The notes under the pieces were generated by a model that was not told the origin of the DNA, did not search any database, and saw nothing but the letters and a program-made list of their open reading frames with translations. Positions 59,682 to 64,000 of a DNA stretch of 64,000 nt are shown here, in pieces (within the stretch, counting starts at the first letter, position 1; each line of letters opens with the position of its first letter). A program made the position numbers and the translations under genes. The stretch comes from Geothrix oryzisoli (GTDB taxonomy: Bacteria > Acidobacteriota > Holophagae > Holophagales > Holophagaceae): NCBI RefSeq assembly GCF_022808865.1, contig NZ_JAKZLB010000004.1, positions 186,001-250,000 on the forward strand. Direction: 5' to 3'.

Positions 59682-59754
59682 GCCGCTATAGCTCAGTTGG
59701 TAGAGCGCCCGCCTTGTAAGCGGATGGTCGTTGGTTCAATTCCGACTAGCGGCT
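59682..59754 (+). tRNA. tRNA-Thr(TGT)
   Basis: 73 bases. Acceptor GCCGCTA/TAGCGGC, D-arm TAGCTCAGTTGGTAGAGC, anticodon loop CTTGTAA (anticodon TGT, reading ACA), T-arm GTTGGTTCAATTCCGAC. No encoded CCA. It marks the junction to the low-GC region and is a plausible attachment site. Confidence 0.95.
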
Positions 59755-60379
59755 CGGATGTGAAGCCCCCAAAGCCACTGCTGGCGGGGGTTTCAGCGAA
59801 TTGCCCGATCTATCAAAGAACTGACCACTCAGCATGGTTGTGAGCGTTTCAAGGTTGTGCAGGTGCAATAGAGGTGCAAGTCGAAACGGCTTGAAACCCT
59901 CGTGGTTCCTTGCGTTCGTTGGAACCCCTGCCCGAGAAAGGTGCAAACCCAGGTTGTCTCTCCTGGGCCTGCTACCAGTCTATGCCCTTGCCCGTGAAAA
60001 GCTGACCGCTTGAGGAGCCATTAAAAGCACCAGGAGTCAATGGGGGTGGGGGTTTAAGCGAGATCGACTTCTTCATCCGGTGCTGGGGTACGTAGTAATC
60101 TACCGTGGCGTGACCGCAGCATCCCTCCGTACCACTTGGTTCTGGTGGAGGACCAAGGTGCTTCAGGCCCAGGCGGGGTAATTTTGAAAGAATGGCTGCC
60201 GCCAACATAGGTCAAGAGATAGATGTGGCCTATGTTGGCGGTTGTTTGCGTTGGAGTTTTCGCTGGAACCTGTGATTGACCTGTTGTAATCGTTACCGCA
60301 CAGCCCAGGTAATCACCCGCTCGGCCATTCCTGAAGAAAAGAACAACGATTAGTAAGGGGGAGAATCACTTTCTTATGA
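59755..60379. other. Gene-poor 625-base junction after tRNA-Thr
   Basis: No convincing gene. Short reverse-strand frames (59746-59946, 59972-60208) lack recognisable motifs and ribosome sites. No integrase is recognised here. It contains a 13-bp-arm inverted repeat (60199-60241) and several GGTGCAA/GAGGTGCAA repeats near 59865-59945. Composition is intermediate between the core and the AT-rich gene beyond. Confidence 0.6.
60199..60241. repeat. Inverted repeat with 13-bp arms
   Basis: CCGCCAACATAGG (60199-60211) and its exact inverse (60229-60241) with a 17-base loop. It lies 139 bases beyond the stop of the large reverse-strand gene; possible terminator or recombination/binding site. Confidence 0.6.
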
Positions 60380-63300
60380 CTATGGGCGACGTCGAAGAAG
60401 CGCCTCTTCACGGTCTTGATCTCCACCAAGCCTTCGATAAGTTTCGGCTAGCCTTCGCATAATCGCCGATGTTCTCGGGAATATCTTGACCTGTTCAGCA
60501 TTGGAATCGAAGTGAGTGGCAAGGTCGCGTTCCTGCTGTCCTCCAGCGTACATCGATCGCGAATGCACCCCTCGACTATTAAAGATCCCCGTTTCGAACC
60601 CTTGATCGAAATCTGGTTCTGAGATTAGCTCTATCAAGAGACAGGTCTCCTTTCCCGGAGTCCCATGACCTGTGTATCGGCCCATAGCGTTCCCGAGTTT
60701 CAGCAGGCCAGCGGCAAGGTGCCCGGATGTTGATAGTTCAGCTTTCATTCTTTCAATCCAATCGAGTGCCTTCTGCTTGTTAAAAGTATTTTGCTGATCT
60801 AGCCCGGGTATTCCTGACCAGGTCCTTAAGACCCCATCAGCAAGACCAGCCTTGGCCTGCTCTTCTTCACTTAATGCTCTTCTTTGTTGTCCCTTTGGAA
60901 TGTATGCAATTTGAATCGCTTCGATAAAAATAGCAGGATCCGAGGATATAGTTGAATTTAATATAGATGGAACCCATGATATATTGTTTGCTTGTATCAT
61001 CAACAAATCAATCTGAAGCAAAAGAGTTTCCGGGAATGAGGCATTTCCTTTCATGCTTTTATATATTTTTTCTAAATAATGAATTGTCATATCGGATGGC
61101 GCATCAATTTTATGTGTAGGTTTTAATATTTCTTTCAGTATTTTTTCGAGTAAATCGACAGGCCAAGAGCTGTCATTCTTATGATAAAGGCACAGCATTT
61201 CGAGTGCTGCAAATGGTCGATTTACAATTACTAACGAGTGCGGTATTATTTCATCATATTTTTCCCCAAGTCCATAACCAATGAAGTTAGTCCAGTAGAT
61301 TCTGGCAGGCTTAGCGGTTAAGGATTTAACCCTGACCGCATCAAAGGGAAGATAAAGATGAAAATTAGCACGTTGCTTAACAGTCATTCTTTTCTTCAAT
61401 TTTTCATATATATTATCACTCCAGATTGATCCATATTTTTCAAACATCCCATATATATATCCACGGCAAAATTGGTTATTTTTTAAATTTTCTGACGTCA
61501 AATAATTCAATAAAATTAAGTTTTCAAGGCGAGTATTATTATTGATTTTTGAAAAGGTGTAGCCTACTGCTTCAGGCGATTCTGCATTTTTTATTAATTT
61601 TTTAATATATTCCCAACCACCGGCTTTAAAAATAAATTCAATACTATTTATTCGTTCTTTATTTATTTTTTGTTCATCTTTAACATAATCATATTTTCGA
61701 CCCTCCAGCAATGTTGGATTTCGAGAAAAAATCCAACCATATTTCAATATAATATTTTCTGGCTCTAATTTGTTATACAATCTTTTAATTTTTTGTAGGA
61801 GCCTAGCTTTATAGGCCCACCCAGAATCAGAGTGTGATTTATGGCGACTGTGAATTTCCCTGAGCGTGGATCGCAGCGATTCCCGACTGGTTTCACTAAA
61901 TTTGGTAATATCTTCTAAGTTAATACAATCTATGAGTTTTGATACAAATACTTCTGGCCAATCATGAATTTGCTTTAGAAGTTGATTCCATCGATTTGAA
62001 TTTCCCTCTGATTGACTAAATGCAATTTCCAATATTTCCAAATAATTATAGTAGAGGTCTCTTTGTGTAATTATATTTTCCTTGGCCTTGTATGATCTAT
62101 ACCATCGAGGTTTCGGATTCTCTGTGGCAGAATTAATTCTTCCAGGTAATAGATTCGTAAGTATAATCCAACCTATTTCATTTTTATTTTTAAGTATCGA
62201 ATCAATGACAAATTTCCTCTTTTCGAAATTTGCGTCAGTTTGTGGGTACCAAAGGCACAAGAGTGACAATGCTGATTCAAGTGGAGTATTATTTATAATT
62301 TTTTGATGAGATATTTCGTGCAGTGCTATAAGTATATTTATTACTTGTGGGAAATAGTTCTCAATTCGCCCGATAACCTCTAATGCCCACATTAAACCTG
62401 GGTGAGGAGATCTTTTCGAAAGTAGGCTATTGTCTGTCTTGATAAAGACTTCATCAAACACCTTTGGATTTTCAATAATTATTTCTTCAAGCTTAGTAAG
62501 AAATAAATCTGGAGATGCTTCAGCAAAGTATCGAAACAGATCTTCATCTGCCAATAACACCCATAGCTTTGGATTCTTTGCTGCAGCTTCGAACCAATTA
62601 TAAATAATTGATTCAGCTACTTGAGAAAAACTAGATTGAGCCAATGGTTTCAATTCATTTTCGTTACACATCTGCGCGATTTGTTCAGCAATACCCTTTC
62701 TTATGGCAGGGGAAAAATGTGGTGGTCTGCTTTTTCGCAAATCGAGATTAAATATAAAATCTTCATCAACACTTGGATTCGATGTTTCCAAGACAAGACA
62801 GGCTATCTTTTTAAAATTATCAAGATCTGAATGAGTTAAGAATGGAGCTAACAAATTCCATGAATCAGTTCTGGAAGTAATTGACCAAGAACCTCCAATG
62901 CATGTAATCGGCGGATCATCCTGAAACAGCCACGGGACCAGTGTATCAATCTGTTTGGCCCAAGGTTCGCAGGTCAATGCTTCGAGGCATTCCAGATCCT
63001 TTGAATTTGCCTCCACCCAAGCCCCAATCAGCATGGGTGCCAACATCTTGCGTCCCGCTATCGGTTTCGCCCACCTAGGGCGGGATAGTTCAGGATGAAC
63101 TGCAAGTCTTCTTCTAAATGCGTTTAAATCCTGTGGCCACAAATAAGCCAAATATCGACATTCCACTTCATCTTGAATAAATTCATGTAATTTGGTTTCG
63201 AAAGCTTTAATCCCTTTGTGATCTACTGGAAACGATTCAGTTAAACCAGGTTCATCTTCTTTTCCGATCGACTGAAGAATTCTATGATTACCAGCGCTTA

Positions 63301-64000
63301 TATTGTTTTCCGAGGTCATACCCATGAATGATGGAATTAATATTAATTCTCCATCTTGAATTTTCATGTAGTTCCAGGCACGTGGTGATTTTATAATTAA
63401 CGTTTTTGATAAAATATGCTCTCTTTGTTGGCCTTTAAGCATAAATAAAGCAGCCGCTAAATATACCGTTCCATTGTTTCGCGAAAAAAATCGAATTTTT
63501 TTATGCCTATCATCAGACATAACCCAATTATGAACCGTACTTACGAGCGACTCTCTCCCAATCGTCAAGATCTCAGGCGTTAATCGTGGCTGAGTTGCAG
63601 ACGAAAAACCATCCATAAACTCGTCAAGAGTTTCAATATCCTCAACAGACTTTCCAACAATCGATGATATCCAATAATGCGTTGCCGGAGCTTGTTCAAG
63701 CCATGCTGCAATCATATCAGCATCAATTACAAATACATTTTTCCAGTATTTTTCTGATTTTTTCCTTTTTATCCATGCCGTTTTATTTTGCCATCGTCTG
63801 GTTGTAACAAATATATATGTTATATTTTTTGCAAATGATTTAGGATTCTTCTTCTTCCTTTTACTATAGTCTTGATTGGCTTTTTCATTAGGTGCTTTAT
63901 TGGTGCCGCATTCCCAAACTGATTTACCTTTCGGTATGTGCGCGCTAGGAATTTGCGCTTCAACCACACCATCCCAGCCAGGGGCACCTACACCCTCGTC
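60380..64000 (-). CDS. Very large AT-rich island protein, N-terminally partial; nuclease-like N-terminal segment
   Basis: At least 1206 codons; the frame is open at the window edge (first residues DEGVGAPGWDGVVEAQ). The N-terminal part has GWDG, VPKGKSVWECGTN-type and KANQDYSKR segments (here IPKGKSVWECGTN) that resemble restriction-endonuclease-like folds, but no canonical E-x-K is visible. Beyond about residue 150 there is no Walker A motif. The rest appears as long helical segments. The C-terminal GVHSRSMYAGGQQERDLA and RRLAETYRRLGG segments look conserved, possibly shared with other large defence-like proteins. Base use is far more AT-rich than every neighbour, strongest in the middle. 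Function unknown; antiviral defence is an inference from context. Confidence 0.7.
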   Translation of the reverse strand, partial: DEGVGAPGWDGVVEAQIPSAHIPKGKSVWECGTNKAPNEKANQDYSKRKKKNPKSFAKNITYIFVTTRRWQNKTAWIKRKKSEKYWKNVFVIDADMIAAWLEQAPATHYWISSIVGKSVEDIETLDEFMDGFSSATQPRLTPEILTIGRESLVSTVHNWVMSDDRHKKIRFFSRNNGTVYLAAALFMLKGQQREHILSKTLIIKSPRAWNYMKIQDGELILIPSFMGMTSENNISAGNHRILQSIGKEDEPGLTESFPVDHKGIKAFETKLHEFIQDEVECRYLAYLWPQDLNAFRRRLAVHPELSRPRWAKPIAGRKMLAPMLIGAWVEANSKDLECLEALTCEPWAKQIDTLVPWLFQDDPPITCIGGSWSITSRTDSWNLLAPFLTHSDLDNFKKIACLVLETSNPSVDEDFIFNLDLRKSRPPHFSPAIRKGIAEQIAQMCNENELKPLAQSSFSQVAESIIYNWFEAAAKNPKLWVLLADEDLFRYFAEASPDLFLTKLEEIIIENPKVFDEVFIKTDNSLLSKRSPHPGLMWALEVIGRIENYFPQVINILIALHEISHQKIINNTPLESALSLLCLWYPQTDANFEKRKFVIDSILKNKNEIGWIILTNLLPGRINSATENPKPRWYRSYKAKENIITQRDLYYNYLEILEIAFSQSEGNSNRWNQLLKQIHDWPEVFVSKLIDCINLEDITKFSETSRESLRSTLREIHSRHKSHSDSGWAYKARLLQKIKRLYNKLEPENIILKYGWIFSRNPTLLEGRKYDYVKDEQKINKERINSIEFIFKAGGWEYIKKLIKNAESPEAVGYTFSKINNNTRLENLILLNYLTSENLKNNQFCRGYIYGMFEKYGSIWSDNIYEKLKKRMTVKQRANFHLYLPFDAVRVKSLTAKPARIYWTNFIGYGLGEKYDEIIPHSLVIVNRPFAALEMLCLYHKNDSSWPVDLLEKILKEILKPTHKIDAPSDMTIHYLEKIYKSMKGNASFPETLLLQIDLLMIQANNISWVPSILNSTISSDPAIFIEAIQIAYIPKGQQRRALSEEEQAKAGLADGVLRTWSGIPGLDQQNTFNKQKALDWIERMKAELSTSGHLAAGLLKLGNAMGRYTGHGTPGKETCLLIELISEPDFDQGFETGIFNSRGVHSRSMYAGGQQERDLATHFDSNAEQVKIFPRTSAIMRRLAETYRRLGGDQDREEALLRRRP

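Follow-up and report, generated by a model that had tools for sequence, protein, structure and literature searches.

What is the AT-rich tract that begins at a tRNA-Thr gene near the end of this stretch of Geothrix oryzisoli DNA, and what might its one giant gene do? The window, i.e. the whole stretch analysed, comprises 64,000 nucleotides (G000:C4:186001-250000); positions past 64000 are given as window-equivalent coordinates. The tract was found to be a minimal, 5,815-bp mobile element integrated at tRNA-Thr with a single cargo gene, whose product belongs to a widespread family without prior annotation. The cargo is reasonably likely to be an Avs-like, nucleotide-independent, single-protein nuclease directed against phages or other invaders. 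The element comprises the following features.

59682-59755, + strand: tRNA-Thr(TGT), left attachment repeat (ARAGORN; own-genome search; repeat family).
59756-60379: left end of the element, without coding sequence; a hairpin is located here at about 60199-60241 (sequence, blastn, folding).
60380-64000, - strand: part of the giant gene within the window (open reading frame).
64356-65396 (window-equivalent), - strand: tyrosine recombinase of 346 amino acids (Pfam Phage_integrase, 1.9e-23).
65497-65570 (window-equivalent; C4:251497-251570), off the window: exact second copy of tRNA-Thr, 74 nt (own-genome search).

A preliminary description, made from the letters of the window, had noted a shift from GC-rich to strongly AT-rich composition at tRNA-Thr(TGT) and read it as an integrated island. 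The shift was confirmed: guanine-plus-cytosine (GC) content falls from 0.65-0.70 to 0.30-0.42 across 60750-64000. Strong AT-richness holds for that interval, but not for the two element ends, which are only moderately low (0.51-0.58). The reading as an island stands because direct repeats, an integrase and empty sites in congeners, the three marks of an integrative element, were all found. The two tRNA-Thr copies lie 5815 bp apart with the tyrosine recombinase in between; a gene for biotin carboxylase is located 5' of the first copy and murJ beyond the second. A repeat of the tRNA 3' end had been anticipated at the far border. A repeat is indeed present at 65497, but it is the complete gene, so that a full tRNA-Thr copy forms part of the element. 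Complete-tRNA repeats also flank elements in two congeners (G087 and G244). In three close congeners (L109, L110 and L111) the site is empty, the tRNA continuing into the murJ side at the identical base; in a fourth (L112) the tRNA-murJ junction lies within a few bases of this point. None of the 20 other genomes listed for the genus contained the giant gene, so the locus is not a native one shared by the congeners searched, a check that the preliminary description had set. The element contains only the integrase and the intact giant gene as sole cargo. The hairpin 3' of the giant gene (60199-60241; perfect 13-bp stem, -23.8 kcal/mol, z -5.75) could act as a terminator that lacks a T-run, or else as a recombination-arm site.

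Within the window the giant frame runs on the - strand from 60380 over 1206 codons, and more had been predicted. Extension past 64000 yielded two start candidates, with the integrase as neighbour. The longest open reading frame reaches a GTG at 64201 and would encode 1273 amino acids. Translation probably starts at the ATG at 64144 (residue 20), because most relatives begin at residues 20-22 of the window protein; an AAAGG-like site is found 5' of this ATG. The gene would then span 60380-64144 and encode about 1254 amino acids.

The window protein matched no model of Pfam, NCBIfam or PADLOC. Among 13 or 69 members scanned, no family of these collections was detected except an XRE-type helix-turn-helix (HTH), and none over the C-terminal body, which together with a defence-like setting agrees with the earlier suggestion of a distinct defence family. 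Searches of PDB sequences with phmmer and profiles returned HTH and chance matches only, and the profile searches, set beforehand as a test, gave no match to a housekeeping or transport protein. A description of the family was not found in the literature. In genome contigs, relatives were retrieved by an alignment-based scan, whereas a single-sequence scan found none. Of 297 genomes of the phylum, 11 carry relatives, among them a second copy in the same genome, and so do 22 plasmids. At least 558 loci in GTDB species genomes were retrieved with one degenerate peptide pattern; these are spread over Bacillota, Bacteroidota, Pseudomonadota, Planctomycetota, Actinomycetota, Chlamydiae, Gracilibacteria, Methanosaeta and others. 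Full-length identity between the window protein and relatives is 21-28%. The motifs GWDG, SVWECGT and KANQDY, picked out in the preliminary description, are present and conserved in the family. A plasmid of Shewanella baltica BA175, for example, encodes a GWDG-type member. About a third of the members have an extra 40-120 amino acids N-terminal to the common start; in the smaller set scanned this extension is an XRE-type HTH, which the window member lacks. The second copy (C4:373220-376921; L144, G000:C4:368000-384000) is 24% identical to the window protein and lies immediately downstream of a separate tyrosine recombinase (481 amino acids); a PD-T7-3 homologue (2.6e-31) is encoded about 650 bp away.

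For structural analysis, two AlphaFold models were used. Model 1 covered the N-terminal 456 amino acids of a relative (69 sequences; predicted local distance difference test, pLDDT, 94.4), and model 2 covered 1200 amino acids of the window protein (70 sequences, pLDDT 87.4). In the predicted order, the nuclease is followed by a STAND/AAA+-like fold and a winged helix, and helical repeats make up the rest of the protein. These parts map to the gene, on the - strand throughout, as follows.

63602-64000: PD-(D/E)XK-like nuclease (residues 68-200 in the window, domain from about residue 20; conserved columns, model).
63968-63979: GWDG motif with D77.
63911-63913: E97.
63881-63883: K107.
63002-63589: fold of STAND/AAA+ type that lacks both Walker A and Walker B (about residues 205-400; models, alignment).
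About 63467-63490: loop where Walker A would be expected.
60383-63073: C-terminal body, predicted winged helix plus helical repeats (residues about 377-1273), also found in relatives with different N-termini.

The N-terminal domain is predicted with good confidence, on the models, to be a PD-(D/E)XK-type nuclease. Residues 20-150 are predicted in the alpha-beta-beta-beta-alpha-beta-alpha-beta order of such nucleases (pLDDT about 95). It is the most conserved region, with 20 of 116 columns (17%) at least 90% identical; D77 and E97 are each found in 69 of 69 members and K107 in 66 of 69 (D57, E77 and K87 in the relative's model). This prediction is based on the topology, the motifs and the Foldseek alignment over the full length, because the VIA-align rows scarcely cover model residues 1-165.

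The central region shows, in the predicted structures, a STAND-like fold without Walker motifs. VIA-align of residues 166-456 gave Z scores of 10.2 for AVAST5, 10.0 for the Dark apoptosome and 8-9 for Clp/RFC ATPases. Rows within 1 of each other were counted as tied, and the region is therefore called a STAND/AAA+ fold of no particular family. A search with nSTAND3 (PF20720) was uninformative, since generic P-loops dominated the matches. In the family, the loop after strand 1 reads A-E/D-S-x-D/E-E-A, not GxxxxGK[S/T]. Walker A was not found at this position in 69-70 aligned members or in 12 further relatives, and no conserved acidic residue ends the Walker B strand. The core of the nucleoside triphosphatase (NTPase) is also the least conserved region, with 1 of 124 columns (0.8%) at least 90% identical. 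The NTPase is thus probably dead and the protein nucleotide-independent, with coupling between its parts that would not need nucleotide. The preliminary description had seen no P-loop and considered a degenerate NTPase; both remarks fit a fold that persists while Walker A is present in no member checked. Inactive STAND folds (iSTAND) are known from BREX (PMC12839542).

The C-terminal part is, with good confidence from the models, a helical-repeat body; the repeats occupy about 850 amino acids of the 1200-residue model. About 10% of its columns are nearly invariant in the first third and the last part. Models and family conservation together uphold the earlier view of a nuclease-like N-terminus followed by a helical remainder. 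The suspected likeness to STAND- or HEAT-type defence proteins was likewise recovered, as the top PDB match of both models in Foldseek was Avs4 with phage portal (8dgf; E 3.5e-6 and 6.7e-7).

The N-termini of this family are modular. Relatives sharing the body only were obtained by scanning viral contigs with the family profile; matches in these proteins begin only at residue 356-385, approximately, of the window protein. Six prophage-type contigs and 8 of 5426 Escherichia coli genomes encode an N-terminus of about 180 amino acids that contains TDDLIVV...QIKH; to the eye, this segment resembles a PD-(D/E)XK-type nuclease of another kind. Cap4_nuclease (PF14130) gave no match in the prophage records, and the control for this search also gave none. 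With the Pectobacterium gene as query, no match was obtained in E. coli. The E. coli relatives are annotated as 'hypothetical protein', and in strain EC96 the gene lies inside the thrW/tRNA-Thr prophage region. In Shewanella baltica OS117 a TDDLIVV-type relative adjoins an Abi family protein and SieB. By BLASTP, a Shewanella GWDG-type protein is 36-44% identical to the swapped relatives over about 885 amino acids; the similarity starts at one boundary (Shewanella residue about 380), and none was found N-terminal to it. From this shared boundary and the identity of the body it follows that what these proteins have in common is the body, to which at least three kinds of front end are joined, nuclease plus STAND fold being one. 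The body may accordingly be viewed as a portable sensor and the N-terminus as the weapon.

The third front end was met at two loci, L151 (a Buttiauxella plasmid) and L190 (a viral contig), where the receptor starts with QNHTGTGHNVAGD or QTHSGAGHNIARD. Immediately upstream lies a gene for a protein of about 106 amino acids with the C-terminus QNHSGTGDNVGGN or QNHSGTGDNIGRD. The pairs QNHTGTGHNVAGD / QNHSGTGDNVGGN and QTHSGAGHNIARD / QNHSGTGDNIGRD were matched by direct reading, with no motif model. A motif at the receptor N-terminus that recurs at the C-terminus of the adjacent effector is the BASS/BELL arrangement described in PMC7889193, and at L151 and L190 only it was found here. Judged from these motifs, both loci likely represent an amyloid-signalling variant. 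The bodies concerned are located as follows.

L151 7564-10655 and L190 9567-12697: BASS-like-tagged receptor bodies.
L193 9007-12549 (NZ_CP060748.1, 3598033-3601575): E. coli protein that shares the body and has the other nuclease-like N-terminus, adjoining tRNA-Thr in the thrW prophage region.

The setting of the family was surveyed in 148 open reading frames near genomic relatives. AbiEi/AbiEii, Fic, methylases, a BsoBI-type restriction endonuclease, HipA and integrases were found, several of them repeatedly; plasmid neighbours included type I restriction-modification (R-M) genes, a restriction endonuclease and a Shedu-domain protein. No conserved operon partner recurs near relatives, mobile-element and defence genes each being found in few loci. 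A two-gene system was therefore rejected for the main form. The tRNA-Thr site itself is occupied in two congeners. In G087 (L138, G087:C1) another element lies between two copies of the same tRNA-Thr, and the left-end 160 bp of the window element are 92.5% identical to the left end of that element (blastn). The G087 element encodes proteins of 430 and 138 amino acids, the family of which is unassigned. In G244 (L139, G244:C20) a 3.7-kb element at the same tRNA carries ApeA (Pfam ApeA_NTD1 1.7e-34, HEPN_Apea 1.2e-29; PADLOC PDC-S58 and Cas13-ApeA) and a truncated, similar-looking integrase. The site thus accepts other defence cargo.

In the favoured reading, which also draws on Avs biology (PMC12931631, PMC12724215), the C-terminal body would sense an invader by binding one of its components. 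Ligand binding might then act on the nuclease directly by switching, dimerising or oligomerising it, and the dead STAND fold would be a rigid coupler between body and nuclease. The activated nuclease would degrade DNA, leading to abortive infection or clearance of the invader. In relatives, the same body may drive other effectors, either a D...QxK nuclease-like domain or, through a BASS-like tag, a separate BELL-like protein. As a wider and more tentative proposal, which we hold to be possible rather than likely, these proteins could form a large, undescribed family of bacterial and archaeal NLR-like immune receptors that work without nucleotide, with a sensor body of about 890 amino acids, interchangeable effectors and a STAND fold that is a dispensable scaffold.

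Several points weigh against this nuclease and defence assignment. In the nuclease domain a glycine occupies the usual position of the ExK lysine, so that the canonical lysine is missing; its role would have to fall to K107 on the following helix. No significant sequence-profile link of the family to Mrr or Avs4 was found with hidden Markov models (HMMs) or hhalign. Over the whole protein, TM-scores to Avs4 are low, at 0.2-0.32; a different domain arrangement or merely distant kinship may account for this. DNA is assumed as the target, and RNA is possible. The neighbour survey was qualitative and had no matched control, the amyloid-signalling variant was read from two loci, and the defence function is putative.

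Among the alternatives, a restriction-type enzyme was considered unlikely. Here the HTH or the helical body would bind DNA directly (modified or foreign DNA, for example) and the nuclease would cut it, with no sensing of phage proteins. The XRE-type HTH fusions, the PD-(D/E)XK-like domain and the R-M neighbours agree with such an enzyme, but the HTH is missing from the window member and most others, and a helical array of 850 amino acids together with the BELL-like effector swap fits protein sensing better. Quite unlikely, too, appears a canonical STAND/Avs4 receptor that binds nucleoside triphosphate through unusual motifs and oligomerises like Avs4. Its fold and domain order match Avs4/AVAST5, and PaAvs5 needs nucleotide despite a degenerate Walker B (PMC12931631). 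The aligned members of the family, however, have neither Walker A nor a conserved Walker B acidic residue, the STAND domain is their least conserved part, and some relatives are without the fold entirely. Little credence is given to a module for maintenance or competition of mobile elements (anti-plasmid, exclusion or addiction) in place of phage defence. The carriers are integrative elements, conjugative plasmids and prophage regions, as such a module would have it, but this carriage is equally typical of phage defence; moreover, no partner antitoxin was found, and neighbours and same-site cargo are anti-phage genes. A native housekeeping or transport protein is hardly credible: nothing was found in its support beyond HEAT-like folds that do match importins and similar proteins, while absence from the other genus genomes searched, precise empty sites, foreign composition and patchy distribution over many phyla speak against it.

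The favoured reading of an Avs-like nuclease bears on receptor activation in general. Activation of Avs/NLR proteins is thought to need nucleotide, as Walker A is required for immunity in Avs5 (PMC12931631). The same order of parts with a dead NTPase, and close relatives without an NTPase, raise the question of what role the NTPase has and which ligand is bound by the shared body. Because this conserved body is shared, a single search for its ligand could cover effectors across hundreds of genomes, and the E. coli version is directly testable in laboratory strains.

Of the known systems, Avs4 (8dgf) is also encoded by a single gene, and its order of parts, a PD-(D/E)XK-type nuclease, STAND and a long C-terminal repeat array, matches the order predicted for the window protein; the predicted helical-repeat domain of the latter corresponds to the repeat array. 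The window family differs from it in lacking Walker A and B and thus a functional Walker A, in matching no PADLOC Avs model (window protein, 13 or 69 members), in length (about 1254 residues versus 1541) and in that relatives exchange effector plus STAND fold together. The window protein is hence described as Avs-like, yet not assigned to Avs4, because Walker A and an HMM match are both lacking. In the same phylum, a search with Mrr_cat identified one Avs4-like protein (L178/L183, G026:C67) in 1 of 247 genomes, with an Mrr-type nuclease, an intact Walker A (GKEQTGKT) and a frame of 1422 amino acids; hhalign of the family against this comparator and against Mrr was not significant. Avs5 (AVAST type 5, SIR2-STAND; 9nc9, 9jap) superposes over STAND, lid and winged helix (Z 10.2) and likewise has its effector N-terminal and its repeat sensor C-terminal, but the effector is a SIR2 NADase and Walker A is needed. 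BREX iSTANDs (BrxB, BrxF and the C-terminus of PglW) share eroded Walker motifs, pairing with nucleases and fast evolution (PMC12839542). They are, however, modules of multi-gene systems without a C-terminal helical bundle, whereas the window protein keeps the lid and winged helix in the models, unites all parts in one protein and shares its island with an integrase only. Amyloid-signalling NLRs (BASS plus BELL; cf. PMC7889193) resemble L151 and L190 in the matching motifs; these two are without an NTPase fold, and the window member has its effector fused.

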